Assembly (NCBI GenBank): GCA_022072165.1
Contig: JAJVIF010000004.1
Location: 2,262 to 66,261, forward strand
Source: a bacterium
Lineage (GTDB): Bacteria > JAJVIF01
Length of the DNA stretch: 64,000 bases
Direction of reading: 5' to 3'
In this document: one piece after another, positions 687 through 49,756 of the stretch
How positions within the stretch are numbered: position 1 is the stretch's first letter
How the letters are laid out: every line of letters begins with the position of its first letter
Position numbers and translations under genes: made by a program
Notes under the pieces: generated by a model
What the model saw: only the letters and a program-made list of their open reading frames with translations
Databases searched by the model: none
Told to the model about the DNA's origin: nothing

Positions 687-694
687 GGCTGGGG

Positions 695-1669
695 TTACTC
701 CGGCGCGATCGGCGCGTCCTGCGCTCCTTGTGCTTCCTGCTGCAGCGGCAGGGTGGGTCCTTCCAGTGGTCGCAACTGATCAAGCTCTGGCAGCAACAAG
801 GTCTTGCGCTCCCCTGCATACACCTGCGCCAGAGACGAGGCGACCCGGGCGATACAGTCAAACAGGGTCCGCCACTCCCCCTGCCAGAGATACCGCCCGG
901 TGATCTGCTCCAAAAGCCAGCGTCGGGTGGTCTGGTCCAGGGGGTCCTCCGGGTCGTGGTCTGCAATCCAGCGGGCGACCGCCAGGTCCACCAGCGGACG
1001 CCAGGGCTCCATCAGATCATCCGCCAGACAGAAGGGGTTGTAGCGGTTCTTGTGATGCAGGCCCAGCGACGGGTGCAGGCCGGCCCCGCAGATCGCCCGG
1101 GCGGTGATCCCCCGGAGGATGGCGTAGCCATAGTTCAGGTGGCGATTCTGATCCCCCGCCTGCCGGTCGCGACGAAACTGACGGTCGCCAAAGATCCGCT
1201 CCCAGTACTTGCGGGACGCCTGGGCTTCGAGGTTGGAGGGGTCGCCGCTTTTGACTCGTCCACTGAGCGTGCGGAGTCCGGCATCACTGCCGGTCTGCGC
1301 TTCCAGGGCGGCTCCCTGAGTGGCGATCTTCAGACGGATCACCTGCGCCCAGCAGCGTTTGCGGGTGGGAACTGACGCAGCGGCCTGCTGGGCAAAACGC
1401 TCGGTCTGGACAAAGTGACCCTCCAGCGGCAGGAACATGCCGCTGGGGAGGTACTTGGAGTCGCAGACGATGAGGGCCACCTGATGACTCGCCAGAGCGC
1501 TCAAGGCGGGGTGGGAGAAACTGATCTGGGGGTGGGCGGCGACAACCGCCGCGAGATCCTCCAGGGGGATGGTGAGGTCAGGCGCGTCCTGGGCCGAGAG
1601 GACCAGGAGGCTGTTGCGGGCCCCGACTTTGCAGGGGGTGTCGGAGAGGTCGAGGATGCGGTCAGGCAT
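695..1669 (-). CDS. cas1: CRISPR-associated endonuclease Cas1 (type II)
   Basis: Cas1 is the integrase that inserts new spacers, acting with Cas2. At 324 residues it is slightly long for the type II form. Conserved metal-binding positions are visible: Glu148 (NLEAQASRKYW), a His at 205-206 in LGLHHKNRYNPF, and acidic residues in LADDLMEPWRP (217-221). The start overlaps the cas9 stop by 8 bp, with an AGGAGG-type site inside the cas9 end, so translation is probably coupled. The last 35 or so residues are Gln/Pro/Ala-rich and look dispensable. No Csn2 or Cas4 gene is present, which fits subtype II-C. Confidence 0.96.
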   Translation of the reverse strand: MPDRILDLSDTPCKVGARNSLLVLSAQDAPDLTIPLEDLAAVVAAHPQISFSHPALSALASHQVALIVCDSKYLPSGMFLPLEGHFVQTERFAQQAAASVPTRKRCWAQVIRLKIATQGAALEAQTGSDAGLRTLSGRVKSGDPSNLEAQASRKYWERIFGDRQFRRDRQAGDQNRHLNYGYAILRGITARAICGAGLHPSLGLHHKNRYNPFCLADDLMEPWRPLVDLAVARWIADHDPEDPLDQTTRRWLLEQITGRYLWQGEWRTLFDCIARVASSLAQVYAGERKTLLLPELDQLRPLEGPTLPLQQEAQGAQDAPIAPE

Positions 1670-4600
1670 GTTGGCCTGCCTCCTCCTGACCCGGTAGAGA
1701 ATTCAGCAGGCCGTCAGGCGTTATCTGTACTCGTCCTGGATTGGCTGCTTTCACTGCATCCCATGAGGTCAGCCTGACTTTGGTGTCATCCCGATCCTTC
1801 TCTCGGCGCCCATCGTTTACCAGATCAAAAACTATGTCTGGCCGCTTTGGAGAGGTGAGCGAGAATTTTCTTACTCGATAGGGACGCCGCTCGCCGTTGA
1901 TCATCAGCAAGACTGTATCCCCTTTGCAGAGCTCACAGACCAGCCGGGTACCAGCAGGCCAGAGGTGTGGTTTGTTCTCCACGAAGAGCGCGGACTTGCG
2001 ACCGCGACCCTTGCGCTCATTGATGCGGGCATAGGCATCGATGACCTTCACCATGCGGCCGGTCCAGTTCCCCTTGTCGGGTCCCTCCACAATCTCGAAA
2101 ATTTCGAGGTGGTGGTTGGGGTCAGTGGCCATGTAGCGGAGGCGATGGCCCTTGCCGATCGGCTGCACCGAACCCTTCTCCAGGGTGACCACACTCTTGA
2201 TGGGGATGAGCTCCTTTGTCTTTGCAGACTCCAGCACGGGAGTCAGTGGGCCAGTCAGTTTCTGCAGCCCCTTTTTGACGGCAGCACTGTCGTCCAGTGA
2301 AATGCCAAGCCGTTCGGTGAGGACCTTTTCAATGGCTCGCCGGGTCCCCTTGTTCAGCACCTTGTCCAGCGAGTTGAGCGAGGTGACTTTGGTGCGGGAT
2401 GCGATGTAGCAGAACCGGCTCGTGTCGCTGGCTTCTGCCGCGGACCTGGGACGTCGTCCCTGGGCATCGCGGAGCGAGTAGATCGACTCCTTGTGCAGCG
2501 CCTGGCTGACGCTGCGGTCCGGCCGATGCGACACGATGACCTGTCCGATGACACTCCGCGCCTGCTCGGTGAAGTCGCCGAACTTCTCCGTGAGTGCCTG
2601 GCGGACGGCATCCCGGGCATCTTTGTCCTGTCGTGGCAGCCCGTTCAGCCTGTTGAGCAGATTCACTGTGGCCTGAGAGGTCAGGGCGATAACAATGGCA
2701 TCGACTGCATGATGCCGATGGTCCTCGCGCGTCTTCTCGTCCGACTTGCTCAGAATCGCGTTCATGTGAAGCGCATTCCGCATTTCAGCAGTGACGCCAC
2801 CCTGAAGCACACGGATGACCTTACGCCCTTTGCCGGTCGACTGGTCTGGGGGCAGATCCCCGGTGCTGCCGAGACAGCCATAGAGATGCCCGAGGTACCA
2901 GCGGGCCATGCGGGAGGCGTAGGCGGTATCGACCAGCTGGCGGTTGGTCCAGGAGTCGATGATCTCCTGCAGCTGATCCTGGGGCGTCAGGAACAATTTG
3001 ATCTTGGCCTCGAAAGCTTTGAAGCGCGGTGCATTCCGCTTGATGGTCAGCCAGCTGTTGACGCGCTGCTGCACCTGCTCCCACTCCTCGCCGGAGAAGG
3101 CTTCCGATGGTGCCAGATTTCCCTTGCGACGGTTTGCCTCGGTCGCGCAGAACACCTTGTTTCTCCACTCATTGTTGGGCCAGCGGCTGCGAGGAATGAT
3201 GTGGTCGATCTCGAACGCACTGGAGAGCGCCTCTGCGCCTTGTGCCTTGCGGCCGGTGTAGGGACAGATGAAATCCTGGTCCTCAGCCAGCAACCACTTG
3301 TCCACCAGGGCGCGATCTCTGGCGTCTTCGGGATTCAGATGCATGCCGAAGCTTTCGGCAATGGTCTGATATGCCTTTTCCCGGCGCTTCCGGGCTTCTT
3401 CATTGCGTTCCTGAGCCTGGAGCCGCTGCTTCAACGGCTGCTTCATGTCGCGGGCATACTCGATCACGATTTCCGCCGGTTTGCCGTGGCGTCGGATGAT
3501 GGCGTTGACGACTTTGCGCAATTCAGTCAGCGCTCGCTGCACCACCGGATTCCGGAGTTCCGGGGGGACGTAGTCTGGATAGGCAGGGGCGTTGGCCTGC
3601 CATTGCTCCCGCAGGGCAGGATGCGAGTCCCAGCGAGGAGGCTTGGAGGGAATTAACGGCGGGAGCAACGGAAGGATCGGGAGTCGCTCCGCACGTTCGC
3701 CGTATTCCAGTTTGATGGCAGTACTAAGGGGGACCCCAGCTTCCAGATGGGGAAGCAACCGTCTGAGGGCTTTGCGTGAGAAACTACAGAACTTGTCATC
3801 CAGGGACGTTTGAGCATACTCCTCAGCGGCCTCCTTCTTCAGACCAAACTGATCCTGAGCGAGGCGGAACAGCTCCTCATCTGAGATCTCGTCACTGATG
3901 AGGCAGTCCACGCGTTCTTCCTGCTCTTTCGAACTCAGGTCGTCCCACTTGGGGCCGCGTGCTCCGTCAAAGATGCTGCGCATCAGATTGACGGTGTCAT
4001 TGCCCTGGAGCGCTTTGGCCTCCCCCTTTCCGTCAACATCGTCACCAAAGTTGATTGTGGGGTAGGACCCTTTGCGGGCCTTGAAGTTGCTGCCCAGGAG
4101 CTGACAAACCTCGGACTTGCTCAGGCGGGCTTTCCCACCCCTGCTTTCGAGGGCATCAAGAATCCGGCGACGCTCCTCAGGCAACAGCGATCTGGATTCA
4201 AGCGGATTCAGATAGATCCGCAGGTCGTTGAGGCGCTGCAGCAGACGGAGTTGCTGAAACTCGATTGTGCCGCGTTCAACCCGCTTCTCCGATGGCTCGA
4301 GTTCGCAGCGTCCGATGAGATGCCGCTGGCTTCGGAGCGGTCGCTGGAAAAAGATGATGTGGCGGATTTCTTCCCGAAGAGTATCTGTCAGTACCGCCGG
4401 ATGAAAAGCAGTCTGAGCCGCCCAGAGAGCTTCAAACTCCTGTTGGTACATCTCACGCGCCGTGAATCGGCCGCGTATGCGGAAGGAGCGGGGCGTCGCC
4501 CCCTGCGCCGGGGCATCCCAGGCAGTCGGTGTCTGTGCAGCGAGATGCTGACCCAATGTCCGGCCTTCACCAATCTCGACCCGCAGGGTCCGGATCTGAT

Positions 4601-5387
4601 CCAGCATCCCCACCCGCTTTTCTCTCACTGGCGCGTCAGGATCAGCAGCTTTTCCTTGCCGTGGCTTCGTTGCCTCGGTCGCTTCTCCCTCCGGCTTCTG
4701 CTCGTCGGGCTTGTTAACTTTGCGATTACTCTTAAACCCACGGCGCTCGGCCAGGTGATACAGGCAGCGACCGAAGGCATAGAGGCTGACTTCATCATTC
4801 AACGCCCGCGCCCGCAGTTCATAGATCCAGCGATGCTCCAGATGATGGAAGTACTCTGTCCTCAGCCTCTCCTGTTCCGCAGGGTTGTCTGATTTTGTCC
4901 AGTCCGGCAGTTGCTCATACAACCACTGAATCAGCGTACTGCCGTGTTGGCTTTGTGAGTCGGTGCCAGTCAGTCCATCAAGCTTCTTCAGGGCTCGATC
5001 TCTGAGCACCGCATGTGACTCCTGCAAGCCGGGAGTTCCTTCCAGATGCGGGAGCAAGCCAGCAGCACTAAGCGCATCGTAAAGCTTGCGGAGCCGCAGG
5101 GCATGTCGCTTGAGTCGCCGCCTCGCGCCCCGTGCAGTCCGGCGGCTCTTTGCTTTGGAAGCCTCGGTTTTCTTGTTGTAGTTATCGACACCGGCCTCAA
5201 AGATGCGGGAGCCGGCGGCGCGGATCGCGGTCGGCACCCAGCGACCCTTCCCCCCTTCATCCAGCGGCACCGAGATGTCATTCGGATCCCAGATGGCATC
5301 CAGGACCGCCCATCCCACGGAGTTCGCACCGATATCGAGTCCCAGAATGTAGTCCCCACCCACTGGCAGCGGATTCTTGCTTGTCAT
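1662..5387 (-). CDS. cas9: Type II-C CRISPR RNA-guided endonuclease Cas9
   Basis: Cas9 cuts both strands of a DNA target chosen by crRNA paired to tracrRNA. The 1,241 residues contain RuvC-I (GLDIGANSVGWAVLD, Asp18), an Arg-rich bridge helix (about 78-100), RuvC-II (VIEYARDM, Glu643), HNH (FEIDHIIPRS, His729) and RuvC-III (HHAVDAIVIAL, His892 and Asp896). All catalytic residues are present, so it should be active. Its size and the absence of csn2 or cas4 point to II-C. A charged linker rich in Lys, Glu and Pro lies near residues 227-260. The start has AGGGGA 7 nt upstream. The divergent tracrRNA begins within about 50 bp, so promoters for the two overlap. Confidence 0.97.
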   Translation of the reverse strand: MTSKNPLPVGGDYILGLDIGANSVGWAVLDAIWDPNDISVPLDEGGKGRWVPTAIRAAGSRIFEAGVDNYNKKTEASKAKSRRTARGARRRLKRHALRLRKLYDALSAAGLLPHLEGTPGLQESHAVLRDRALKKLDGLTGTDSQSQHGSTLIQWLYEQLPDWTKSDNPAEQERLRTEYFHHLEHRWIYELRARALNDEVSLYAFGRCLYHLAERRGFKSNRKVNKPDEQKPEGEATEATKPRQGKAADPDAPVREKRVGMLDQIRTLRVEIGEGRTLGQHLAAQTPTAWDAPAQGATPRSFRIRGRFTAREMYQQEFEALWAAQTAFHPAVLTDTLREEIRHIIFFQRPLRSQRHLIGRCELEPSEKRVERGTIEFQQLRLLQRLNDLRIYLNPLESRSLLPEERRRILDALESRGGKARLSKSEVCQLLGSNFKARKGSYPTINFGDDVDGKGEAKALQGNDTVNLMRSIFDGARGPKWDDLSSKEQEERVDCLISDEISDEELFRLAQDQFGLKKEAAEEYAQTSLDDKFCSFSRKALRRLLPHLEAGVPLSTAIKLEYGERAERLPILPLLPPLIPSKPPRWDSHPALREQWQANAPAYPDYVPPELRNPVVQRALTELRKVVNAIIRRHGKPAEIVIEYARDMKQPLKQRLQAQERNEEARKRREKAYQTIAESFGMHLNPEDARDRALVDKWLLAEDQDFICPYTGRKAQGAEALSSAFEIDHIIPRSRWPNNEWRNKVFCATEANRRKGNLAPSEAFSGEEWEQVQQRVNSWLTIKRNAPRFKAFEAKIKLFLTPQDQLQEIIDSWTNRQLVDTAYASRMARWYLGHLYGCLGSTGDLPPDQSTGKGRKVIRVLQGGVTAEMRNALHMNAILSKSDEKTREDHRHHAVDAIVIALTSQATVNLLNRLNGLPRQDKDARDAVRQALTEKFGDFTEQARSVIGQVIVSHRPDRSVSQALHKESIYSLRDAQGRRPRSAAEASDTSRFCYIASRTKVTSLNSLDKVLNKGTRRAIEKVLTERLGISLDDSAAVKKGLQKLTGPLTPVLESAKTKELIPIKSVVTLEKGSVQPIGKGHRLRYMATDPNHHLEIFEIVEGPDKGNWTGRMVKVIDAYARINERKGRGRKSALFVENKPHLWPAGTRLVCELCKGDTVLLMINGERRPYRVRKFSLTSPKRPDIVFDLVNDGRREKDRDDTKVRLTSWDAVKAANPGRVQITPDGLLNSLPGQEEAGQHA

Positions 5388-5853: not shown

Positions 5854-8800
5854 ATGACTGCCACTCCGAAGTACCCCGGCATCCGTGTCACCACCAACGG
5901 CAATCAGCTGGTGGCCTACCACACCGAAGCCCGCATCTGCGATGGGGGGATCTTCTACCCCATCACCCCCTCCACCGAAATGGGGGAGAACTACCAGCTG
6001 CACTACGCCGAAGGCAAGCTCAACGTTTTTGGGGAACCGCACATCGCGATTGAGACCGAAGGGGAACATGCCGCGCAGGGGGGCGCGATCGCCTTTTCGG
6101 TCACCGGGAAGCGGTCGGTGAACTTCACCTCGGGGCAGGGGATTGTCTACGGGCTGGAGCAGTACTACCACGCGCCTGGCAAGCTCTCCTCGATGGTCCT
6201 GGAGGTCGCGGCCCGGGCGCTGACGAAGCACGCGCTGAATGTCCATTGCGGTCACGATGACATCTACAGCTGTCTCGACACCGGCTGGATTACGCTCTTC
6301 GCGATGGACTCCCAGCAGGCGGCGGACCAGGCGCTGGTGCTGCGGAAAGTCTGCGAGCTCTCCCTGACACCGGGGATCAACATCCAGGATGGGTTCCTCA
6401 CCTCGCACCTGGAACGGACCTTCTACAAGCACGAGGCGGAGCTGTTGCGTGAGTATCTCGGCCATCCCGATGACATCATCGACTGCCCGACTCCGGCGCA
6501 GCGGACCCTCTTCGGCCCGACCCGTCCGCGAGTCCCCGCCGGCATCGACCTGACAAATCCGACCCTCCTGGGACCGGTGCAGAATCAGGAGCATTACATG
6601 CAGGGCGTGGTGGCCCGTCGCAATGAATTCGCCGAACCGATCCTGGGGTTCCTGGAAGCGGCCTATCGCGAGTTTGGCGAGCTGACCGGGCGGCACTACG
6701 GCTTCTTGTCGGAGTACCAGACGACGGATGCGGAGACGGTCTTTGTGTCGCTGGGATCGTCCTACGAAAACATCATGGCGGCGGTGGATCACCTGCGGGC
6801 GACCCGGGATGCCAGGGTCGGCTGCATCCACATCAACGTCATTCGTCCCTTCCCGGAGGCGGCGGTTATTGAAGCGCTGCGCGGCAAGCAGCGGGTCATC
6901 ATCCTGGAGCGGACCGATGAAGCGCTGTCGCCGGATAACCCCCTCGCGCGGGATATCCGGACCGCCCTCACCCGGGCGCTGGAGAATCACCGGGATGGGC
7001 ATCATGAGCACAACATCCCGCCGATTGCTGAAGCCGAGATGCCCTCGCTGTTCAGCGGCACCTATGGGCTGGGCTCCCGCGACTTCCGCCCGGAGGGGAT
7101 CATCGGTGCGTGGGAGTTCGCCAATGGGCTGATCGCCCGGACCGATGGGCGCACCGCTGCTGAGGGCGAGCGCTTCATGGTGCTTGGAATCGACCATCCG
7201 TATGAGGTCAAAAGCCAGGAGCGTCCGAGCCTCCTGCCGGACAAAGCGATCGCTGTCCGGTTCCACTCCATCGGTGGCTGGGGGATGATCACCACCGGGA
7301 AAAACCTCGGCGAGATCATCGGCGAGTTCGCGGATTATGTGGCGAAGCGGGTCGATGAGAAAGACGAGTTTGGCCGGCTGCGGGAGATCATCCATGTCAG
7401 CGCGAACCCGAAGTACGGCTCCGAAAAGAAGGGTGCGCCGACCGAGTACTTCCTGGTGGCGGCTCCGGAGCGGATCCGGGTGAACTGCGACCTGCGGCAT
7501 GTGAATGTGGTGCTCTGCTGCGACCCGAAAGCGTTCACGCACACCGACCCCCTCGAGGGGATGGTGGAAGGCGGGGCCTTTGTCTGGGAAAGCGATGAGC
7601 TCCCCTCCCGGGCCTGGGAGCGGATTCCCCGCTGGGCCCGGAAGGAAATCCTGGAGAAGAAAATCCGGGTCTTCATCCTGCCGGGCTTCCAGATCGCCCG
7701 GGGCGCGACCGATCGCGCCGAGCTCCAGTTGCGGATGCAGGGGAACGCGTTTCTCGGAGCATTCTTCAAAGTCTCCCCGTTCCTGGAGGAGTTCGGCATC
7801 GACACAGAGCACTTCCGGGAGGTGGTCCACGCGCAGTATGTGAAGAAGTTCGGGCGCTTCGGTGAGGCCGTGGTGCAGTCGAACATGCAGGTGATGACTG
7901 AGGCGTTCGAAGGGGTCAAAGAGATCACCTACGGCACCCTGGATGATCTGGACCGGAGTTCCATGCGGGGGCAGACCCATAAGCCGGTCTTCACCGATGG
8001 TTGTTCGCTGCTGGGCGAGATTCCGCTCCCGCCCGGTCAGGACCCCCGGGTCCCCCTCACCCGGCTGGAGACGTTCGACAACGAGTTCCGGGCGGGGAAG
8101 GGGTACCACCAGTCCGCGACTCCCCTCTCAGCCGTCGGCATCATGGCGGCCGCCACCGGCGCGACCGCAAGCAAATATGTGGCGCGTCGTGAAACCCCCC
8201 TCTGGATTCCCGAAAACTGCACGCAGTGCATGGACTGCATCGCTGCCTGTCCCGACACCGCCCTGCCGAACACAGCTCAGGACATCACCGCCGTGCTGAA
8301 GACCGCCATGACGCACTACGTCGGCGATCCGGGACAGCGGGAGCTGCTCCACGCGGAGATTCCGGCGATGGAGTCCTGGATGCGGGACCGGATGCGGGCA
8401 GCCGTAGAAGCAAAAGCACCGGTGCCGTTCCACGAGATGGCGAGCGAGTACCTCGCCGGACTGAACAACGGCATCACGGAAGTCGCGAAGAAGCAGGTGC
8501 TGGAGATCCTCGAACAGGTGCCGGTGGCCTACAACAAGATCAACGCGATCTTCTGGAATCCCGAGAAAAAGGAAAAGGGAGCCGGAGGCGTCTTCCACAT
8601 CTTCGTCTCAGACCTCTGCAAGGGATGCGGCGAGTGCGTCACCGAGTGTGGCGAGCACGAAGCCCTGAAAATGGTCCAGGAAACGGAAGAGGTCAATGCG
8701 GAGCACGACACCGCAATGATCTTCTCCCGTCTGCTGCCCGAGACACCCCAAAAGTATCTGGGGCTCTATGACGATGAGCATCCTGAAGACTCCAGGATGG

Positions 8801-10617
8801 CGGCGCTCAAGAACCACCTGATGGTGCGTCGCAACTACGAAGCCCTGGTCTCTGGCGATGGGGCCTGCGCAGGCTGTGGGGAGAAGTCGGTGCTGCGGGC
8901 TATCGCGACGCTCACCGAGGCATACATGCGTCCGATGTTCCACCGCAAGGCAGATCGCCTCCGCGCCAAGGCCGACCGTCTCCTGGCCGAAGGCCCCGGG
9001 AAGCTCGCGATGCTCCAGCAGTCGCAGCCTGAGGAGTACGCCCTTTGGCGGCAGAGCATCCTGCATCTCTTCCTCGGACTCGGGGGCGAGGATGACCGGG
9101 ACACCAAGGGGCGTATCGCCGCCTATGAAGCGAAGCACGGCATGGTCACCGATCAGCAGCTGCTCGATGCTGTCGCGGCGGTCATGCGCCAGGAGGCGTT
9201 CAACCACAAGGACCTCCAGGCCCTGGATGGTCGCCTCGCCAACGGCATGAGTGTTATGGCGATGGGCGCTCACACCGGCTGCAATACCGTCTACGGCTCG
9301 ACCCCGCCTAATAATCCGCATCCCTATCCGTGGATGAACTCCCTCTTCCAGGATGGGGCCACCATCACCTGGATGTTCGGCGAGAGCTTCATCATGGACC
9401 ACGCGAAGCGGTCAGTCCTGCCGGAGCGACTCACCGACCGTTTGCTCGATGAAGAGCGGGGGCTCACCCCGGTCGACTACTTCGACTTCACGCACTTCAC
9501 CGATGCGCTGATGACCGAGCAGGAGATCCGGGAGCTGCCGAAGGCCTGGTGTGTCGGCGGCGATGGCGGTATGGGGGACATCGGCTATCAGAACGTGTCG
9601 AAAGTGGTCCTGCAGAACCGCCCGAACGTGAAACTGGTCCTCCTGGACACCCAGGTCTACTCCAACACCGGCGGACAGAACTCCGACTCCTCGCCCATGA
9701 TGGGCGGCTATGACATGAACCAGATGGGAGCGGCCACGCAGGGGAAGCTGGTGGAGAAGAAGGGCGTGGCGGAGAGCTTCCTGGGCGGCCACGGATCAGC
9801 GTTTATCGCGCAGGTCTCCATGGCCAACGCCCCGAAGTTCTACAAGGCGATCCTCGATGGGCTGGAGTATCGCGGCACCGCATTCTTCCAGTGCTTCACC
9901 ACCTGCCAGCCGGAGCATGGAGTCGCCGACGATGTCTCGACAGTCCAGGCGCAGCGGATCCGAGACTCCCGGGGGATGCCGGAGTTTGTCGCCAACCCGG
10001 CCCTCGGTGAGACCTACGCTGACATGCTGGACCTCAAGGGGAACCCATCGTGGCATCTGGACTGGTGGGAGAACCGCTTCAGCTCCAACAAGCAGCTGTA
10101 CAAGTACACCACCGCCCACTGGTGCGCCACCGAAAACCGCTTCCGGCGTCACCTGAAGCGGATCACCCCGGAGGAAGCCGCCGGGATGATCCACATGGAT
10201 GACATGCTGGTGCGGATCACGCAGCACGATGTCATCGAGCGCAACTTCAACGATCTGCCGCATCGGTCGTATGTGCCGGACTTTGGTGTCTACATCGAGA
10301 CCGAGGATGACAAGGGTCGGATTGTCCTGATGGCAGTGAGCCGTCAGATGGTCCTCTTCTGCGTGGAGCGTCGCAAGTCGTGGCGGCTGCTGCAGAGCAA
10401 AGCGGGGATCGAGAATCCGGAGTACAAGGCGCAGCGAGCGCTGCTGGCGAAGGTCGATAGCGGCGAGATCGCCCTGGAGGAGTTCCTCGCGAACACCCGG
10501 GCGCTCTATCTGGCGGAGATCGATGCCCTGGGAGGGACCGGACACAAGCGACCGGCTGCCGCCGCGGCGCGTCCTGCGCCCGCCGCGAAAGAAGTCGCCC
10601 CCGCTCCTGCGGAGTAG
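5854..10617 (+). CDS. nifJ: Pyruvate:ferredoxin (flavodoxin) oxidoreductase, NifJ type, extra-long
   Basis: A single-chain 2-oxoacid oxidoreductase that converts pyruvate and CoA to acetyl-CoA, CO2 and reduced ferredoxin in the cytoplasm. The N-terminal pyrimidine/substrate domain starts at ITPSTEMGE. Two ferredoxin-type motifs follow: CTQCMDCIAACP (Cys789 on) and CKGCGECVTECG (Cys922 on; Gly replaces the usual Pro). The thiamine diphosphate domain has GDGACAGCGE (about 1001), GDGGMGDIGYQN (about 1236) and VYSNTGGQNSDSS (about 1268). With 1,587 residues it is about 400 longer than typical NifJ (about 1,170-1,200). The extra length lies between the clusters, inside the TPP domain and at the C-terminus, which ends in an Ala/Pro-rich tail. 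The start at 5854 begins the recognisable protein, with aagga upstream; an upstream frame to 5821 is less likely. Confidence 0.93.
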   Translation: MTATPKYPGIRVTTNGNQLVAYHTEARICDGGIFYPITPSTEMGENYQLHYAEGKLNVFGEPHIAIETEGEHAAQGGAIAFSVTGKRSVNFTSGQGIVYGLEQYYHAPGKLSSMVLEVAARALTKHALNVHCGHDDIYSCLDTGWITLFAMDSQQAADQALVLRKVCELSLTPGINIQDGFLTSHLERTFYKHEAELLREYLGHPDDIIDCPTPAQRTLFGPTRPRVPAGIDLTNPTLLGPVQNQEHYMQGVVARRNEFAEPILGFLEAAYREFGELTGRHYGFLSEYQTTDAETVFVSLGSSYENIMAAVDHLRATRDARVGCIHINVIRPFPEAAVIEALRGKQRVIILERTDEALSPDNPLARDIRTALTRALENHRDGHHEHNIPPIAEAEMPSLFSGTYGLGSRDFRPEGIIGAWEFANGLIARTDGRTAAEGERFMVLGIDHPYEVKSQERPSLLPDKAIAVRFHSIGGWGMITTGKNLGEIIGEFADYVAKRVDEKDEFGRLREIIHVSANPKYGSEKKGAPTEYFLVAAPERIRVNCDLRHVNVVLCCDPKAFTHTDPLEGMVEGGAFVWESDELPSRAWERIPRWARKEILEKKIRVFILPGFQIARGATDRAELQLRMQGNAFLGAFFKVSPFLEEFGIDTEHFREVVHAQYVKKFGRFGEAVVQSNMQVMTEAFEGVKEITYGTLDDLDRSSMRGQTHKPVFTDGCSLLGEIPLPPGQDPRVPLTRLETFDNEFRAGKGYHQSATPLSAVGIMAAATGATASKYVARRETPLWIPENCTQCMDCIAACPDTALPNTAQDITAVLKTAMTHYVGDPGQRELLHAEIPAMESWMRDRMRAAVEAKAPVPFHEMASEYLAGLNNGITEVAKKQVLEILEQVPVAYNKINAIFWNPEKKEKGAGGVFHIFVSDLCKGCGECVTECGEHEALKMVQETEEVNAEHDTAMIFSRLLPETPQKYLGLYDDEHPEDSRMAALKNHLMVRRNYEALVSGDGACAGCGEKSVLRAIATLTEAYMRPMFHRKADRLRAKADRLLAEGPGKLAMLQQSQPEEYALWRQSILHLFLGLGGEDDRDTKGRIAAYEAKHGMVTDQQLLDAVAAVMRQEAFNHKDLQALDGRLANGMSVMAMGAHTGCNTVYGSTPPNNPHPYPWMNSLFQDGATITWMFGESFIMDHAKRSVLPERLTDRLLDEERGLTPVDYFDFTHFTDALMTEQEIRELPKAWCVGGDGGMGDIGYQNVSKVVLQNRPNVKLVLLDTQVYSNTGGQNSDSSPMMGGYDMNQMGAATQGKLVEKKGVAESFLGGHGSAFIAQVSMANAPKFYKAILDGLEYRGTAFFQCFTTCQPEHGVADDVSTVQAQRIRDSRGMPEFVANPALGETYADMLDLKGNPSWHLDWWENRFSSNKQLYKYTTAHWCATENRFRRHLKRITPEEAAGMIHMDDMLVRITQHDVIERNFNDLPHRSYVPDFGVYIETEDDKGRIVLMAVSRQMVLFCVERRKSWRLLQSKAGIENPEYKAQRALLAKVDSGEIALEEFLANTRALYLAEIDALGGTGHKRPAAAAARPAPAAKEVAPAPAE

Positions 10618-10645
10618 CGACGCGAGTGCCATGAAGAGTCTGTGT

Positions 10646-10671
10646 GAGGCGGAGGCGCAGTCCTCCGCCTC
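10646..10671 (+). terminator. Hairpin after nifJ
   Basis: A perfect 10-bp stem (gaggcggagg/cctccgcctc) 29 bp after the nifJ stop, without a T tract. It could stop or stabilise the nifJ transcript. Confidence 0.4.
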
Positions 10672-10782
10672 GGTCGTTGCAGCAGATGGGCAATTGGACG
10701 CTGCCTGCTGATGCTATGGCGTTGTACAATGCTTCTGACCTCCGACACGCATGGCTTCTGCCTGAAGTCAGGGAGGCTCCGG

Positions 10783-12711
10783 ATGAACACCTGCCTCGGC
10801 ATACGACTGCCGCTGGTTCTCGCCCTGATGCTGACGAGTGTGGTGCTGCTGGGTTGCTTCGGTACAGGGGGGCAACCCCTGGACCCCGGCGACCCACAGG
10901 TCCCCGGTGCGCCCGACCCGGATCCTGACCCGGTCACCACAACCCTGGTCATCACCACCCTCGAATTCCCCGACTGGTACACCACTCTGACGCTGGCCCC
11001 CACACTGGAGGTCGAAGGAGAGCTGGCTTCGGTCCTTTGGGACTTTGGTGCTGGTGCGATGCCGACGACTTCCACCGACCTGACACCACTCCTGACATTG
11101 CAGGACCCCGGCGACTCTGCCGGCAGCCTGGTCCTCACTGACACGGCCGGGGGGCGGCTGGAGCGGCGTTTTACTTACCGGGTCCTCGCCCCAACGCTCC
11201 CTCAGATCGAGGAGCCGGAGCCGATGGGTCTCACCGGTTGGGAAGGCGGACCGCTGCAATTTTCGGTCAGCGTTGCAGGGCCACCGGTGGTCTCCTGGGC
11301 ATGGTCCTTCGGCGATGGCGCGACCCCGGCGCAATCATCCGAGGCCCGCCCCATCGTTCGGCTGGGGCGTGTCGGCAGCTATCCGGGTCAGGTGACGGTC
11401 TGCAACGCCTTCGGATGTGTCACGCGCAGCTTTATGTTTGGGGTCCAGGAGCCGGTGCTGCAGTGGGAAGCCACGCCCTTTGCAAGTAACGGGACCAATC
11501 CCCTCCTGCGATCAGTGCCTGATGGGCGGGTGCTGCTGGTTTACGAAGAGCCTCACAAGATTCCCCGGGAAGACTGTGAGGACTGCGAGCCCCGGAATGG
11601 GACCAGCATCCGGCTGGGGTTGGGGACCTGGTCTGAGGCGGATTCCGCACTCACCTGGGAGCTGAGGGAACTGACCCCGCCAGCGCTCTCCACACCGGGG
11701 CGTGACGTGGTGCTCGATGGCGACCGGTTGATCCTGTGTGCGGCACCGGGTGGATTCACACGACCGTCGCTGGATCTCTTCATCACGCCCATCGATGGCG
11801 GAGCCATGCAGCAGGTGACGTTTGAAGGGCTGGCACTGCGGGGGAGCATCCTCCGGGATCCTCGCATGGCGATTCACGATGGCGAACTCCTCCTTGCCTG
11901 CAGCCGTCTGGACGGGAGCGACTGGCAGGCATCGCTCATGGCAGCGCCTCTCAGCGCGCTTGCAGGCGAGCTCCCGCAGCTTCAGCTTGATCTGACTACC
12001 GCAACGAAAAAATCGGTGAACGCGGTTGATCTGCAGGTCAGTGAGGGGCAGGCGTTTCTCGCCTGGACAAAAGGTGAGGGGGTCCAGATAAAGTATCCCG
12101 GGACGCTTGCGGTCGGGCGTCGAACCGCCCTGGGGGGCTGGGTCACCGCCAATCTGGATCAGTCAGCGCGTAATTGCGATCAGGTCCGTTTTGTCCCCAC
12201 GATGACCGGCCTCCATCTCCTCTACACCTCCTATCAGGCGTTGTATGTGGAGTCCAACGGCTATGGCGAGCGCTGGACCGTGCCGGGGGCACCCCGGCTG
12301 CGGGAAGCCTGGACCTCGCAACGGGACTTTCAGTCAGCAGGAGCCTGGGAGACCGGGTTTTATGGCGAGGCGGACTACCTGGTCAGTGTGCAGGCTGACC
12401 TCTTCCGGGGGATGCCGCTGATCACCGGAGCACGAGCCTTCCCCTCCTTCCGTGTCACGACCCTCGCCATTACGCAGGGTTTCGATCTGGCTGGAGGCGC
12501 GATTCCGTGGCGGACGTCGTTCCAGGCGGAGGCGCAGGCAGGCCGTGGCTGCTGGAAGATCGCGATGGCCGCAGCGCATGATGTCGCCGTCGTTGCGCTC
12601 GTGGATTACATGGATTCGTACTGGCCCTTCTGCGGTGGCCACTCCAGCGGTCCGTGCTACGAAATGCTGAATGAACCGGTCCTGAAGGTCGGAGTGCTAC
12701 GCCCACAGTAG
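10783..12711 (+). CDS. PKD-domain lipoprotein of unknown function
   Basis: A predicted exported lipoprotein of 642 residues. The signal peptide ends in a lipobox (VVLLGC) with Cys about 25 residues in, followed by a Pro/Asp-rich linker. Two PKD-like modules are visible: one around WDFGAGAMPTTSTDLTP and one around WAWSFGDGATPAQSS. The C-terminal 400 residues are beta-rich with repeated short blades and look like a surface-exposed propeller, with no catalytic motif I recognise. The start at 10783 follows GGGAGG by 6 bp and begins the signal peptide. The first module resembles one in the 37510-40158 lipoprotein. It converges with the TIR-STAND gene. Confidence 0.8.
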   Translation: MNTCLGIRLPLVLALMLTSVVLLGCFGTGGQPLDPGDPQVPGAPDPDPDPVTTTLVITTLEFPDWYTTLTLAPTLEVEGELASVLWDFGAGAMPTTSTDLTPLLTLQDPGDSAGSLVLTDTAGGRLERRFTYRVLAPTLPQIEEPEPMGLTGWEGGPLQFSVSVAGPPVVSWAWSFGDGATPAQSSEARPIVRLGRVGSYPGQVTVCNAFGCVTRSFMFGVQEPVLQWEATPFASNGTNPLLRSVPDGRVLLVYEEPHKIPREDCEDCEPRNGTSIRLGLGTWSEADSALTWELRELTPPALSTPGRDVVLDGDRLILCAAPGGFTRPSLDLFITPIDGGAMQQVTFEGLALRGSILRDPRMAIHDGELLLACSRLDGSDWQASLMAAPLSALAGELPQLQLDLTTATKKSVNAVDLQVSEGQAFLAWTKGEGVQIKYPGTLAVGRRTALGGWVTANLDQSARNCDQVRFVPTMTGLHLLYTSYQALYVESNGYGERWTVPGAPRLREAWTSQRDFQSAGAWETGFYGEADYLVSVQADLFRGMPLITGARAFPSFRVTTLAITQGFDLAGGAIPWRTSFQAEAQAGRGCWKIAMAAAHDVAVVALVDYMDSYWPFCGGHSSGPCYEMLNEPVLKVGVLRPQ

Positions 12712-12760
12712 AGGCCAGAACCGGGAGCGTTGCAGTTTTTGATGTGTGGACTGGATGCCT

Positions 12761-15736
12761 TTACACCAGCGCGGTGTCGGCGGCGTAAAGCGCCTGTACT
12801 TCCCAGTGCCCGGTCCCCAGGTGCGCGGCCAGCATCGCTAAGGAAGTGACCGGTGCGCCTGTGAGCAATTGCCGCTGGACATCCAGCAGCAGACAGAACG
12901 GATGCTGCGGGTTGAGATGTTGCTGCAGGACCGGACCCGCCCGCATCAGCTGCTTCAGGAAGCCAGCTCCATCTCCCGTCTGCAGTGCCAGCCACCCGAC
13001 CGTAGCCAGCATCTGCGCCAGTTGCCCGACCAGCGGTGGAGTCGCTTCCAGTTCTTCTTCCAGGACCAGCGCAGCTTCAAAGCCCGCGGGTGGCAGCAGG
13101 TGCTGCCAGCACGCCACCTGCGCCGTAAAGCCCCGGACTTTGCGCACCCAGGTATGCGCAGGATGCAGGGCGGTGGTGAGCCGAATCGCGAGGGCACTGA
13201 GCTCGCGGATCGCCCGGGCCTCCCCCAATAGTCCACGCAAGCGCCAGGCGTGGGCCAGGGAGTTGAGCGACCGGGAATCCTGGGGACCGAAGATCGCCGC
13301 ACGACTTCGGGCGACTTCCATGAAGAGAGTCGCGCTCGCTTCCCGGTCGCCACGCAAATACAGCAACTCGGCATGGTTGTGCGCGGTCGCCAGCGTGCTC
13401 TGGCTCTGCGGCCCCAGTTGGCGCTGACGACAGGCGAGGGCCTGTGAGGAGACCGGCAACGCCTCGTCATAGCGACCGGCAAACATCAACGCCATCGCCA
13501 GATGATGCCCGCAGTCATTAGTGGTGCTGTGCTCTGGTCCCAGTACCTTTTCTGCGATCGCCATCGCTTCTTCGAGATAGCGAATCGCCAGTGACAGGTC
13601 ATTCTCTTTGAGGGCAATGAGGCCCAGCTCCCGCAGGGGGGTCACGCTGCGGGCGGTGGCGAGTCCGGGAAGGGAAGCGCGTCGGTCCCGCACCAATTCA
13701 AACAGTGCCCGTGCCTGCCCGACTTCTCCCAGCCGGTCCACCAGGAACTTGGCCCGGAGAAACTCGATGTTGAGTGTCAACTCCGCTTCCGGACCCGCCA
13801 GCATATGAGCCCTTTCGGAAAGCGACGCCAGCCAGTCGAGGGTGCAGCGCGGCTCCCGGAACTCGAACGACGACACCGCGTATTCGTACTCGTACTCCAG
13901 CGGCAGGAGGCTGCCGTCCGGGGCTTCAGCCTGGGCCAGCTCCCAGACTTCCTGGCGGAGTGCCAGTGTCGGCTCCTTTTGCCCCAGCGCTTCCTGAAAA
14001 AAGGCGACTTCGCCGAGTACCTCAAGACGCAGGGCGAGAGGGAGGCTGGGGTAGCGTCCGACCCGCAGGACATGCGGTGCCAGCGCCAGATGCAGGCTGG
14101 CTTCATTCACCAGCGAGCAGTCGTGAGTGATCTGCAGCTGACGCAGGGCTTCTGCCAGGGGCAGCAGAGCGGCCTCGCTGGCCGGACGCGAGCGGAGGAA
14201 GTCCGCCAGAATCGGGTGCATCCGTCCATAGGCGGCATCGCTCCCCGGCATGATCCAGCCCCGCAAGCGCAAAGTCGCCCGGGCTGAGCGAGCGATTCCC
14301 TGCTCTTCCAGAATGGCGAGGAAGGGCATCGGGATGGGAGCATCCGGGAGCCAGGCCAGATGCTCCGCCAGCTTGAGCGCCGCGGGGTCGAGGGCATCAA
14401 GGCTGAGTTGGAGGGAGTCGCCAATGGCCGGGAGCGGGACCGAGGGGAGCATCTGCTGCAGCAGGTCGGCGGTCTCCGCCAGGATCGGAGTCACCGACCC
14501 CCCTTCCAGCAGCTGATGAATCTGCGCATGATCGATCGCGCCGGTGGCCAGAGCCACCTGCAACAGGTCCATCGCCAGGGGCCAGTCACCCAGACGCGCC
14601 GCGAGCTGATCCGCCAGGGGCAGCGGCAGCGCGGCTTCGGTCAGATCGCTGGTCAGGAGTTCCCGGGAGGCCCAGCGGGGGAGGGGGGGGACCGGGAGGT
14701 TGGTCACCGGCGGGGGAAGTGCAACCTGCGAGGTCAGGAGCAGCGCCGTGTTTCCCAGGTCCCCCGTGACCAGAGTGAGCGGGAGTTGCCCCGCCTGATC
14801 GGACGTCACCCCATCCAGCACTAACAGCCGTGGGAGCTCACCAGCTCGCTGAAAAGTCTGGCGCAGCAACAACCCCAGATCGGTGTCTGCTTCCAGCAGC
14901 AGGCGCAGGGCGGGGATTGCGGGGTCCAGATGCTGCAACAGCGCATGGACCTGCGGGATCCAGAGATCGGGGGTGCTGACCTGTAGCCAGTACATCCCTC
15001 CCGGGAAGTGCGTGGGGCCATAGCGCCAGACAAACTCCGCGACCAGTCGCGTTTTCCCCGTACCACCCGGTCCAGTCAGCGCTACCGCATGATGTCCCGA
15101 CGGGCTCACCAGCTGATGCAGGAGACTCCGGAGCAGCAGTTCTCGTCCGACAAACCGGCTCGGCGCGAGATGTGGCACCCCGAGGGTCCTGGCAGGATCC
15201 AGTTGATCGGCCCGGGCCGGGATAGCGGTGAGGGCCGTCGCCCGGGCTTCGAGTTGTTCGCGGGCCAGGGGCGGCAGCAGCGCAGAGAGTGGCTGGCTAT
15301 GGCCATGATCCAGCAACTGACGAATCAGCGCCACCTGACTGGACAGTTCCGGGAAGGTCGGCCAGTTGATGTCCCGCAGCTCCTGCGGGAGGTGATCCAG
15401 CAACTGGTCGTGCCGTCCTGCCGGCAGGCAAAGGACCAGGCCCCGGGCTTTGGGGGGGAGGGTCCGGAGGGCGTCCCAGCGAGCGAGCGCGATCTCAAAC
15501 TCCGCCTGGCAATAGGGCCGGGTGAAGAAGTCCGGACTCAGGAAGCAGACGAGGACCCGGGCCTCCAGGGCCGCCTGCAGGATCGCCTCGCTGATCGGCT
15601 CGCCCGGCAGCATGGCGGACTGGTCGACAAAAGCTTCGCCGGGGGCGAGGGCAGCCGCCAGGGCGGCGGCAAGCGCGCTGGCCGCGGTCCGGGAATAGGA
15701 AATGAAGACCGCAGGAACGTTCACCGGAGAGTACAT
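12761..15736 (-). CDS. TIR-STAND NTPase-TPR protein (bacterial NLR-like, probable defence sensor/effector)
   Basis: A 991-residue signalling ATPase with three parts. (1) An N-terminal TIR domain (about 7-140): VFISYSR, then LSPDFF and PYCQAEFEIAL, where Glu79 matches the catalytic Glu of NAD-cleaving TIR domains. (2) An NB-ARC/STAND module with FVGREL (195-200), Walker A GPGGTGKT (222-229), a Walker B-like RLLVLDG and a sensor stretch LLLTSQ. (3) A C-terminal helical array with kinesin-light-chain-like TPRs, such as AIRYLEEAMAIAEKVLGPEH. In characterised relatives, recognition by the C-terminus triggers oligomerisation and NAD depletion in infected cells; that role here is inference. The ATG is 2 bp after GGAGG, so an internal GTG five codons on is possible. 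It follows the unknown gene at 15789-17090 by 52 bp, likely one operon. Confidence 0.88.
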   Translation of the reverse strand: MYSPVNVPAVFISYSRTAASALAAALAAALAPGEAFVDQSAMLPGEPISEAILQAALEARVLVCFLSPDFFTRPYCQAEFEIALARWDALRTLPPKARGLVLCLPAGRHDQLLDHLPQELRDINWPTFPELSSQVALIRQLLDHGHSQPLSALLPPLAREQLEARATALTAIPARADQLDPARTLGVPHLAPSRFVGRELLLRSLLHQLVSPSGHHAVALTGPGGTGKTRLVAEFVWRYGPTHFPGGMYWLQVSTPDLWIPQVHALLQHLDPAIPALRLLLEADTDLGLLLRQTFQRAGELPRLLVLDGVTSDQAGQLPLTLVTGDLGNTALLLTSQVALPPPVTNLPVPPLPRWASRELLTSDLTEAALPLPLADQLAARLGDWPLAMDLLQVALATGAIDHAQIHQLLEGGSVTPILAETADLLQQMLPSVPLPAIGDSLQLSLDALDPAALKLAEHLAWLPDAPIPMPFLAILEEQGIARSARATLRLRGWIMPGSDAAYGRMHPILADFLRSRPASEAALLPLAEALRQLQITHDCSLVNEASLHLALAPHVLRVGRYPSLPLALRLEVLGEVAFFQEALGQKEPTLALRQEVWELAQAEAPDGSLLPLEYEYEYAVSSFEFREPRCTLDWLASLSERAHMLAGPEAELTLNIEFLRAKFLVDRLGEVGQARALFELVRDRRASLPGLATARSVTPLRELGLIALKENDLSLAIRYLEEAMAIAEKVLGPEHSTTNDCGHHLAMALMFAGRYDEALPVSSQALACRQRQLGPQSQSTLATAHNHAELLYLRGDREASATLFMEVARSRAAIFGPQDSRSLNSLAHAWRLRGLLGEARAIRELSALAIRLTTALHPAHTWVRKVRGFTAQVACWQHLLPPAGFEAALVLEEELEATPPLVGQLAQMLATVGWLALQTGDGAGFLKQLMRAGPVLQQHLNPQHPFCLLLDVQRQLLTGAPVTSLAMLAAHLGTGHWEVQALYAADTALV

Positions 15737-15788
15737 AGCCTCCAGGCAGAGAGACGATGACTTAGTAAGTGGACCCGGACCCTGCAGG

Positions 15789-17090
15789 TTAAGCGCTGTC
15801 GGGGGCGGGCCGTACCCAGCGGACGATCAACTCGGCTTCCCCGCTGGCGGCTCCCTGGATGACTTCGGTGCGGAGCAGCATGGTGCCGTTCCGCGCCAGG
15901 GTTACCTCGTGATAGCGCCCGATGTTGGTGCCTGAGGGCACAGCGAGATCACCTGTTTCACCCGCCGTAGGGGGATCGCCGACCCCAGGGCAGGGATAAG
16001 GATCCTCGCCGGGCGCGGCGTCGAGGGTCCAGAGGCGTTCGTAGTGCTGCACCTGGGTCCCAGAACTGTTGAGGGTGGTTGCGAGTTCCACCATCCGGGA
16101 GCCGAAGGGGGACTCCCAGACCAGTGTGGACTGGAGCGCCTGCATGGGATTAGCAAGCTGGGGGGGACAGCTGGCACTTTGCCAGGTCCCAGCCTCAGCC
16201 GCGGTCCGGGAACTTGCGGTATAGCAGACCGAGACTTCACCATTGCCACGGGGGTCATCCGCTCGCCGGATATAGGCCCAGTGGTTATTGAAACTGTTTA
16301 CGCTAAATTCAATGCCGAAATAATTCATAAAATACTTACCGCCCAGGCTGAGCGAGCCTCTGCCCAATTGCCCATCAGAGCTACGCTGATTAAAGTACTT
16401 CACTTTTGTGTCCCCTGGCTCGGCATCCAGCCAGCCTGTATACCAGATATTGCTTTCCTCAAAATCATCCGAGTCGCTCCTGAAAAGTGGGCCAACCGCA
16501 GCTTTAATTTCCATGTCTTCCAGGTGCAATTGCACATCTGGCAGGTGGCTCTGGTTCTGTGCGCTCCAGCCCACCAGGATGGGATACTCGCTTCCGACCA
16601 TTTGAGTCCATTGCACCCGGTTGAGGGGTCCCAGATGTGTCGGGACCTGCACCTGGACATCTGTGAACTGGCTGTTCCATTCATCGAGAGGTGTCAGGTG
16701 AATGACATCCCCCGCCTGAGTGATCTCCGCGAGGAGGGCTGTGACCGGCGCGGCAAACGCATTGTGAAACCAGGCTTGTGGCAACGCTGCGGCCTGATGA
16801 GGCAATTGCGCCAACTTGCGCGCGGCGATCAGGTCGCGGACTGTGACTTTGGGAGCCAGCGCAGGGCTCGCAGGCTGCAGACGCATTAGCAGCAAGCTGG
16901 TGGTGACCAAAGGATTACTCGTATCCAGACGGGCCAGGAGTAAAACCTCGCCGGTCGCGCTGCTTTCAAACAGCTCCGTACGGTGGAGCTGCGAAAGCAG
17001 GACCCCGCAATGCGACGTTCCCACCTCCACTTCTCCCTGAGTCATCGCTGAACCACGATCTAAGAGAGAAAAGCCGTTATCGACCGCCAT
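15789..17090 (-). CDS. Protein of unknown function upstream of the TIR-STAND gene
   Basis: I recognise no domain in these 433 residues. The protein is beta-rich, with many Trp, Tyr and Asn in the middle (near WNSQFTDVQVQV, NIWYTGWLDAEPG and MNYFGIEFSVNSFNNHWAY). It has no signal peptide or membrane segment, so it should be cytoplasmic. The ATG at 17090 is chosen because AGGGAGG stands 9 bp upstream; a TTG at 17114 lies before that site. The stretch 16270-16500 is more AT-rich than its neighbours, a possible sign of transfer. A promoter lies upstream and the TIR-STAND gene follows after 52 bp, so it may be that system's partner, for example a sensor or regulator. That role rests on position only. 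Confidence 0.7.
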   Translation of the reverse strand: MAVDNGFSLLDRGSAMTQGEVEVGTSHCGVLLSQLHRTELFESSATGEVLLLARLDTSNPLVTTSLLLMRLQPASPALAPKVTVRDLIAARKLAQLPHQAAALPQAWFHNAFAAPVTALLAEITQAGDVIHLTPLDEWNSQFTDVQVQVPTHLGPLNRVQWTQMVGSEYPILVGWSAQNQSHLPDVQLHLEDMEIKAAVGPLFRSDSDDFEESNIWYTGWLDAEPGDTKVKYFNQRSSDGQLGRGSLSLGGKYFMNYFGIEFSVNSFNNHWAYIRRADDPRGNGEVSVCYTASSRTAAEAGTWQSASCPPQLANPMQALQSTLVWESPFGSRMVELATTLNSSGTQVQHYERLWTLDAAPGEDPYPCPGVGDPPTAGETGDLAVPSGTNIGRYHEVTLARNGTMLLRTEVIQGAASGEAELIVRWVRPAPDSA

Positions 17091-17143
17091 GATGCGGATC
17101 CTCCCTGGATTCAAGACTCCACTGGCCTCTCACGAACCCCCGT

Positions 17144-17171
17144 AATATACCAGAAAATACAGCAGTACCAA
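17144..17171 (-). promoter_or_regulatory. Promoter of the TIR-STAND operon
   Basis: On the minus strand, TTGGTA (17166-17171), a 16-bp spacer and TATATT (17144-17149) form a good sigma-70-type promoter. Transcription would begin near 17137, leaving a leader of about 47 nt with a strong ribosome site. The whole region is AT-rich. Confidence 0.6.
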
Positions 17172-22736: not shown

Positions 22737-25700
22737 GTGTCAGCTCTCGCCCGTCCCTACCTCTCCAGCATCTGGCCCACCCTGGGTCTCTCTCTGTTGC
22801 TGACACTTGTCGGATGTCAGTCGCAGCGGGGATCTGTGACTGGTGCGCCGGCGATGGGGGCGACGGCCACGCCGATGCTGTCGCTCCTGGAGGGTGGTGG
22901 CGTCGAACTGGTGCCGGCGCTGTTCGATGTGACGGTTGACCAGACGTCGATGACTGCTGCCGTGACGCCCCGACGTCTGGGAGCGAATTTCCAGGGGAAC
23001 CTCTACGACCTCGACATCCGGGTGTTCCAGAACGCCGAGTCCTTTCGCATTACCGGGGTCCGGTCGGACCCGGATGGCAATCCCATCATCGATTACCAGC
23101 ACGCGCATCCCTTCGGTCCGCCAGACCTGTCGAAGCCGGTGAGTGCCGCCAATCGGGCGGACCTGGGGTACACCGGACGGCTCCTGTTTGTCGGCGAGGT
23201 CCCCAGTGCCCAGCGTCCGGGATCGACCTTTTTCTCAGGGCTCCTGGTGAATGTGGGACTCGTGGCGAATGCAGATGGCTACCTGGAGGTCGGGGACCTT
23301 TTGACCCAGGGACAGGGCTTTGCGACCCGGGCGTTTCCCTACCGGCTGATCGTGGATGAGGTGCGCAACAACCGCGTGGGACAACCCAACAGCGGGGTCT
23401 ATTCCGGCAACTACGATGCCGCATCAGGAGGCTGGCAGCGGAGCAATCTTGGGAGCAACAACACTGGCTGGATTGGTTATGACTATCTGCATCAGGGGCA
23501 AATCGCCCGGAGTTTTGTCACGCTCCGCAAAGAAGCCTTTCAGAGCGGCACCGCGACCTTTACGGTCGCCATCCTGATTCGTTATAGCGATCCGAGGGGG
23601 ACCAAAGACAAAGCGAATCGCCTGCCACAACAGCCGGTGGATGTTCTGAAGTTCGCGTACCGGCTGCCCTACGCCGCGCTGGACTGCAGCAAGATCACGG
23701 TCGGTGGCGCTACAGTCGACACCACCATCGGCTCCAGCGCCAGCGTGACCCTGCGGGTTCGGGACTGGGATGCCCGGGCGGCGGAAACCACCCAGACCGA
23801 TCTCGGCAAAGACTCCAACGTCGCGCTGGTGCAGCAGCGGGGGGCCGGCAGCCCGACCGTCACTATCAGTGTGCCGTCGTTACGGGATACGCTGATCACC
23901 GCCACGGAAGACGCACCGCAGCGGAGCGGTCAGCCCGGCGATGAGATCCGCTTCACTGCCACGATTGCGAACCAGAAGGGAATCGCGACCGCCGGGACCA
24001 TCTGGGCACTGGCGCGGATGGTCGACCCGGAGGAGAACGACCCCGGACGTCCGGCCTATGCCTTCGGAGTCGACCCCGACACGCTGTCAGGTGCCACGAG
24101 TCGGGCGCTCCCGGTGGTCACCTATCAGGTGATTCCGGTGACGGTCACCGCCCCCGCCGGGAGTGGGCCGCAGTGCGGCAGCGCGGGGATTAATGGGAGC
24201 GGCACCATCGCGCCGGGGGGGACCTTCTCGACCAATCTCAGCACGATCACGGATCCGGACTCCTCCTTTATCACCTTCCAGTTTCACTACAACGGCCCCT
24301 CGGAGAGCTTCTCCAGTACGCTGCCGATCAGTGTGGCGGGACTGGTGCTGGAGAGCGCGTTTAATCCTTTCACCGACAGCCGTCTCACCACCCCTCTCTT
24401 CCCCCCGACAATCCCTGGGACCTATGACTTCGACATCCGCCTCTCAGATGGGGCAAGCCCTCAGGTGATCTGCGGGCCGTATCTTTTTACGGTCCAGGCG
24501 GATCAGCCGCCGCAATGTGGCAGCGGGGTGGTGCTTTCCCGGACCCGGTTCCGAGATACCGAGACCGTACAGTTCACCGCCAATCTGAGCACCATCACTG
24601 ATCCTGGCAATCCCGGACCGGTCGCGCTCTCTTTTGCTTACACCGGACCGGAAGCCGATACCTCGAGCGTCACTCAGCGTTCGTTCCCGTTGCCGGCGAA
24701 CTTCAATCCCTTCACCGATGGCGGACTGGCCAAACCCCTGGTGGCTCCTTCTGCGCCGGGCAGTTACAGCTTCAAAGCGGTGGTGGACGATGGCGTGAAT
24801 TCTCCGGTGGAGTGCAGCGCGCCCTTCGAGATTCGTCCGTGTGGCAGTGCGATGACCGATCCGGACATCACAGGGGCTCCAACCTTCGATGCGGCGTTCA
24901 ACCTCAATAGCGCTCCTCTCACCTGGTACAACTTCTACACGACCCAGGATTACGCCGCCTTCGCGGATGCCACGACCGGGTATGTCTGCCAGCGGTATGA
25001 CCCGGCGGATGATCCGGGGAACGGCACAGTGGAAAACTACGATCTCTGGCGTTTTGTCACCCCCGGCAACGCGGCGACTGCGATCCGGATGACGACCTAC
25101 TTCACTGCGGGCGATCAGGTGGCGCAGCTGGAGATCGATCAGAATCGGCGTGTGCTCTATACGTTCCGTCCATTTGATGATGCCTGGGATGTCGGTTCCA
25201 ACTACGACAACCCCAAGACGACGGTCGGCTGGTTCGATTACTCCGGCGCGCAGGTCACCGCCGCCGGGGGGAGCTTCCAGCTGCCGGTCCCACCAGTGGC
25301 CCTGACTCTTGATGTCGAGGATGGCCTCTGGGTGATCGACACTTCCAACATCCTTGAGCACTATCGCAAGCTGCCGGGAACCGCCGGGTATCAGCGGGTC
25401 CCGGCCGACCTGATCAATCTCGGAGCGGTCCTGGGGATCGGCAGCAGTCGCGTGATCTGCGACTTCGTGCAGAACTTCCACAACGGGGCGTTTTACATCC
25501 TCACCAACAGTGGTCCCTCACGCAACGGGCGGGTCTATCGGGTGGAATGCGATGGGACCCTCTGGGCGGGCGGGACCAATCCCCGGGAGGTGGCGCTGAG
25601 TACGGGGAGTCAGTTCCCGGGTGTCCCCGATGGCGGAGATATCGCGATCGATCAGTGGGGGGCGGGTGGGGTCCGCCTCGATGGCCCCCAGGACGCGCAG

Positions 25701-25916
25701 ATTGTGGTCTTCCACGCGGTGGGAACCGGCGGGATGTATGTGCTGAATGCCGAGCTGGAAGTGACCGCGACATCGACCGGGGGCACGCTGTCCGGTGCTC
25801 GGGGGACACTGGTCGCGGTGGAGAACTACGCCATCAGCAACGAGTTCGGGGATCAGACGACCGGGGAACCCTGGGCCTGGCAGGATCGCTGGCTCCTGCC
25901 CTCAGGCTGGCAGTAG
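22737..25916 (+). CDS. Large exported lipoprotein, GWQ-ending family, copy 1
   Basis: A 1,059-residue lipoprotein of unknown function. The signal peptide ends in LLLTLVGC. An N-terminal domain (about 50-430) follows, with the family motif HPFGPPDLSKPVSAANRADLG and the segment YDYLHQGQIARS. Next come two Ig/cadherin-like repeats (about 475-700), each starting with PQCGS and carrying NLSTITDP. A C-terminal domain of about 350 residues with a beta-propeller look ends in LLPSGWQ. Two paralogues lie at 31388-34258 and 34413-37343. The GTG start follows GGAGG by 7 bp. A GACAAT box near 22670 may be the -10. I see no enzyme motif; a surface or secreted structural role is a guess. Confidence 0.82.
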   Translation: MSALARPYLSSIWPTLGLSLLLTLVGCQSQRGSVTGAPAMGATATPMLSLLEGGGVELVPALFDVTVDQTSMTAAVTPRRLGANFQGNLYDLDIRVFQNAESFRITGVRSDPDGNPIIDYQHAHPFGPPDLSKPVSAANRADLGYTGRLLFVGEVPSAQRPGSTFFSGLLVNVGLVANADGYLEVGDLLTQGQGFATRAFPYRLIVDEVRNNRVGQPNSGVYSGNYDAASGGWQRSNLGSNNTGWIGYDYLHQGQIARSFVTLRKEAFQSGTATFTVAILIRYSDPRGTKDKANRLPQQPVDVLKFAYRLPYAALDCSKITVGGATVDTTIGSSASVTLRVRDWDARAAETTQTDLGKDSNVALVQQRGAGSPTVTISVPSLRDTLITATEDAPQRSGQPGDEIRFTATIANQKGIATAGTIWALARMVDPEENDPGRPAYAFGVDPDTLSGATSRALPVVTYQVIPVTVTAPAGSGPQCGSAGINGSGTIAPGGTFSTNLSTITDPDSSFITFQFHYNGPSESFSSTLPISVAGLVLESAFNPFTDSRLTTPLFPPTIPGTYDFDIRLSDGASPQVICGPYLFTVQADQPPQCGSGVVLSRTRFRDTETVQFTANLSTITDPGNPGPVALSFAYTGPEADTSSVTQRSFPLPANFNPFTDGGLAKPLVAPSAPGSYSFKAVVDDGVNSPVECSAPFEIRPCGSAMTDPDITGAPTFDAAFNLNSAPLTWYNFYTTQDYAAFADATTGYVCQRYDPADDPGNGTVENYDLWRFVTPGNAATAIRMTTYFTAGDQVAQLEIDQNRRVLYTFRPFDDAWDVGSNYDNPKTTVGWFDYSGAQVTAAGGSFQLPVPPVALTLDVEDGLWVIDTSNILEHYRKLPGTAGYQRVPADLINLGAVLGIGSSRVICDFVQNFHNGAFYILTNSGPSRNGRVYRVECDGTLWAGGTNPREVALSTGSQFPGVPDGGDIAIDQWGAGGVRLDGPQDAQIVVFHAVGTGGMYVLNAELEVTATSTGGTLSGARGTLVAVENYAISNEFGDQTTGEPWAWQDRWLLPSGWQ

Positions 25917-37343: not shown

Positions 37344-37434
37344 CGATGCCTCCAGAGCGGTCGCGTAATCTGCGACAGGTGCTGACAAGTGTGCGAGAAC
37401 TGCAGATCGTTATTGTCGCACGTTCAACTATGAA

Positions 37435-49750: not shown

Positions 49751-49756
49751 TACAAT
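49751..49756 (+). promoter_or_regulatory. -10 box of recF
   Basis: TACAAT, 10 bp before the recF ATG. With initiation 6-8 bp after the box, the leader would be about 2-4 nt. Confidence 0.5.

Follow-up and report, generated by a model that had tools for sequence, protein, structure and literature searches.

Does the TIR gene at this locus operate with the gene that precedes it, or does its product act alone? The 64,000-nucleotide stretch of bacterial DNA analyzed here (the window) encodes on its reverse strand, at 12761-15736, a 991-residue protein that consists of TIR, STAND (AP-ATPase/NB-ARC) and TPR domains, as identified from Pfam, motif, NCBIfam and TIR fold searches. Immediately upstream on the same strand lies an ORF of 433 codons (15789-17090) that belongs to no family, and the first-pass annotation had suggested that the two could form an undescribed two-gene anti-phage system. 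We propose instead, with a probability of roughly two in three, that the TIR-STAND-TPR protein is a stand-alone sensor and NADase effector, probably defensive, and that it lies beside a neighbor whose partnership is unproven.

The domain assignment is confirmed. The TIR_2 family (PF13676) matches residues 10-87 with 47.5 bits against a cut-off of 28, and Glu79, located within a YCQAEF motif, occupies the TIR catalytic position and aligns with the Glu of relatives. Modeled with AlphaFold2 from six sequences at moderate confidence (mean pLDDT 64), the TIR region resembles NADase TIRs in Foldseek, where the best matches are all TIR domains, with SARM1 first and RUN1, AbTir, BtTir and PdTIR among them. 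The TIR domain is followed by a P-loop NTPase with a Walker A motif (GPGGTGKT, residues 222-229) and a Walker B-like LLVLDG at residue 304. Its Pfam match to AAA_16 (residues 194-318) exceeds the cut-off (37.5 versus 32.6 bits), and that to NB-ARC is weak (residues 202-267, E 0.016, 14.9 versus 23.5 bits). Together with the downstream sensor repeats, these features place the protein among the STAND/AP-ATPases. The repeats, at residues of about 700-860, are TPRs of the kinesin-light-chain type, with TPR_12 and TPR_10 above cut-off. Thus, the TIR domain with its catalytic Glu, the Walker A-containing STAND and the TPR array that the first-pass annotation had read from this gene are borne out, as is its NLR-like effector-STAND-TPR layout. 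The architecture is of a kind already described, and the gene is an ordinary TIR-STAND-TPR immune-type gene, a relative of plant-type immune receptors.

Avs and bNACHT are bacterial NLR-like antiphage STAND proteins with a tripartite effector-STAND-sensor layout. The 991-residue protein shares this layout but differs in its TPR sensor and in its STAND, which is NB-ARC/AP-ATPase-like and not of the NACHT or Avs type, and it matches no PADLOC-DB 2.0.0 model above noise (best E 0.043, P-loop only). Thoeris systems have a TIR protein and a distinct effector protein. The resemblance to the Thoeris proteins ThsB/ThcB is confined to the TIR domain, over which ThcB4 scores 29.6 bits against a cut-off of 220, whereas no separate effector gene was found beside the present TIR gene.

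The literature describes proteins that combine TIR, AP-ATPase and TPR regions, mainly from multicellular prokaryotes, as effectors in conflict systems, some of them encoded downstream of FxSxx peptide-processing genes, a radical-SAM maturation module (Kaur et al. 2020, PMC7159879). Could the present gene belong to a peptide system of this FxSxx-COOH type? It shares with the VMAP/FxSxx effectors an N-terminal TIR, an AP-ATPase STAND and C-terminal TPRs in one protein, and the gene layout would follow the published one (PMC7159879). FxSxx_TPR (NF040586) is the best NCBIfam match of both the protein and its homologs, one of which, from the same-class genome G001, scores 418 bits, above cut-off. 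However, the match of the 991-residue protein itself reaches 128.8 bits against a cut-off of 300, and no FxsB maturase exceeds its cut-off in three class relatives or in this genome, where the search returned a weak radical-SAM match alone (20.4 versus 370 bits). Moreover, no radical-SAM gene occurs among the scanned window neighbors. A peptide-maturation context is therefore very unlikely and largely refuted. Our analysis adds TIR-AP-ATPase-TPR proteins from an isolated bacterial lineage to those already described.

This 3.3-Mb genome contains three TIR-TPR genes. The closest homolog of the 991-residue protein is a paralog on contig C1 (L035 7245-10026, reverse strand; about 1.861-1.864 Mb), which shares about 30-35% identity with it across the TIR, STAND and TPRs. 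The TIR (L035 9754-10026) and STAND (7245-9764) parts of the paralog do not share a reading frame; the shift between them falls at or close to a stretch of five C and could stem from a sequencing error, from decay or from a slippery site. The third gene, on contig C3 (L036 6234-8462, reverse strand), encodes a TIR-TPR protein that lacks a STAND and has Ile at the catalytic Glu position, so its TIR is probably inactive. It is flanked by apparent glyS and sugar nucleotidyltransferase genes. G001 encodes a 945-residue TIR-STAND-TPR protein (L068 490-3327, reverse strand), and the TIR genes of a second class relative (G002) and of contig C3 have other architectures and other neighbors. No close relative of the TIR gene was found in genome contigs, and on plasmids it has matches in the TPR range alone, to Streptomyces and others.

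These homologs bear directly on the pairing. A tandem upstream neighbor is usual for them, yet it is different each time. About 44 bp separate the C1 paralog from an upstream gene for a PKD/SBBP-type surface protein (SBBP labeled by eye), and the G001 gene starts 45 bp downstream of the gene for an SppA signal peptide peptidase (TIGR00706, 232 bits; pair at L068 490-4461, reverse strand). Within a poor sampling of near relatives, the orphan and the TIR gene were found side by side in this genome only; the orphan is absent near the paralog and near the TIR genes of class relatives. Accordingly, the two-gene anti-phage system is not supported, given a partner without a homolog and TIR homologs, in this genome and in the class, that have other upstream neighbors. 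Under the refuting condition set by the first-pass annotation itself, TIR homologs that are never near the partner, the pairing fails, although the neighbor comparison covers few loci. The few relatives found have no common partner. As a separate observation, the PKD/SBBP-type gene (L035 10071-13675, reverse strand) comprises two overlapping frames, 10071-11696 and 11576-13675, and possibly carries a second frameshift.

What would the TIR-STAND-TPR protein do by itself? By analogy with NLR/STAND proteins in general, the TPRs would sense a trigger, probably phage-derived; ATP-driven oligomerization of the STAND may then gather the TIR domains, and the gathered TIRs would cleave NAD+ via Glu79, which could lead to abortive infection or to a signal nucleotide. 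The protein most likely acts alone in this scheme. The C1 paralog retains the catalytic Glu, as do the TIRs of G001 and G002, whereas the STAND-less C3 copy has lost it, a distribution that supports an active NADase in TIR-STAND-TPR proteins; the present TIR is a probable NADase. A role in defense is plausible on indirect grounds. Against it, the genes that flank the locus have metabolic or surface functions and do not form a defense island, although a type II CRISPR-Cas locus is found about 7 kb off. Such a neighborhood would also suit a regulatory STAND or another non-defense signaling protein in which the TIR serves as a scaffold, and the G001 homolog shows a weak, sub-cut-off AfsR-type match over its TPRs. 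However, Pfam reveals no DNA-binding domain in the 991-residue protein and the catalytic Glu is kept, and we regard a non-defense function of this kind as quite unlikely.

Is the upstream ORF a gene at all? Its likely start is the ATG at 17090, which lies behind a plausible ribosome-binding site (GGGAGGA) and 24 nt downstream of the TTG listed as the start. ORFs of at least 433 codons arose in none of 1000 first-order simulations of the region, and the orphan frame alone scores positive for codon use, with a low value of 0.055 bits per codon, compared with 0.14-0.55 in the other genes of the window that were scored. The ORF is therefore likely a gene rather than a chance frame. The 433-residue product shows no evident signal peptide, TM segment or hydrophobic N-terminus. 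It has no match in Pfam, and the earlier description of a partner of no known family stands. Likewise, it matches nothing in PADLOC, PHROGs or the PDB, and nothing in NCBIfam comes near cut-off. No match was found on plasmids, in viral contigs or, by peptide patterns, in GTDB genome contigs; no homolog was accepted from a tblastn search of 385 whole genomes, and its own genome holds no second copy. Pieces in 18 other genomes, with E values of 0.009-0.1 per genome across the 385, were rejected as noise, being about 40-125 residues long and in many cases interrupted by internal stops. BLASTP revealed no homology between the orphan and SppA, the PKD lipoprotein at 10711-12711 or the surface protein encoded upstream of the paralog, and a single-sequence structure (mean pLDDT 31) was meaningless and gave no basis for a fold search.

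The missing homologs are weak evidence either way, since the lineage is so isolated. The relatives searched include only three same-class genomes, and near relatives are poorly sampled. Neighboring genes are themselves diverged or unmatched: the ELM1-family neighbor has 31-33% identity in two of the three class relatives and no match in the third, and same-class genomes likewise yield no match to the PKD protein at 10711-12711. Orphan status is thus expected for any fast-evolving protein of this lineage. We consider the orphan to be specific to the lineage and possibly cotranscribed with the TIR gene.

The arrangement of the two genes speaks for a genuine module, in which a lineage-specific, fast-evolving orphan would serve the TIR-STAND-TPR protein as its sensor, bait or inhibitor, a kind not described before. 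The genes share a strand and are separated by 52 bp (15737-15788), as the first-pass annotation had noted; this gap contains no terminator match and has a GGAGG shortly before the TIR ATG, which suggests possible cotranscription. The gene beyond the orphan is divergent, and the orphan is preceded by a promoter-like site of its own (17144-17171, reverse strand; TTGGTA-16-TATATT with a TG before the -10, 9/12 match). The promoter reported earlier therefore exists as a site, but calling it clear was an overstatement: two such sites occur in the region against 0.8 ± 0.9 expected per shuffle. Furthermore, conflict-system components typically diversify fast (PMC7159879), as the orphan would have done. 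On the other side, the orphan has no homolog and is missing beside the other TIR genes, its GC3 (0.67) is lower than that of the TIR gene (0.77), and the 52-bp gap is only weakly telling because same-strand window neighbors with no evident functional link (nifJ/PKD, ELM1/rRNA methylase and lgt/next gene) are 93-102 bp apart, somewhat wider. A dedicated two-gene module is therefore unlikely, although the poor sampling of the lineage leaves it some probability. Were the orphan a true partner, it would bring a novel mode of control to receptors of this type.

In the wider neighborhood, a search for mobile-element boundaries around the two genes returned just imperfect short repeats. The window also contains five large ORFs of 846-1059 residues without a Pfam match (22737-25916, 31388-34033, 34413-37388, 37510-40191 and 47664-50204). 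A type II CRISPR-Cas locus encoding Cas9 (1241 residues), Cas1 and Cas2 (123-5387, reverse strand) is located about 7 kb from the TIR gene, with nifJ and the PKD lipoprotein gene in between. Its array (contig C4:25-2240, L072) lies just before the window and occupies the extreme end of the contig. It consists of a 36-nt repeat, GCTGTGGCCGTCGGACAATGACCGCTCAGGTACAAT, that occurs about 35 times at a spacing of 65-66 nt.
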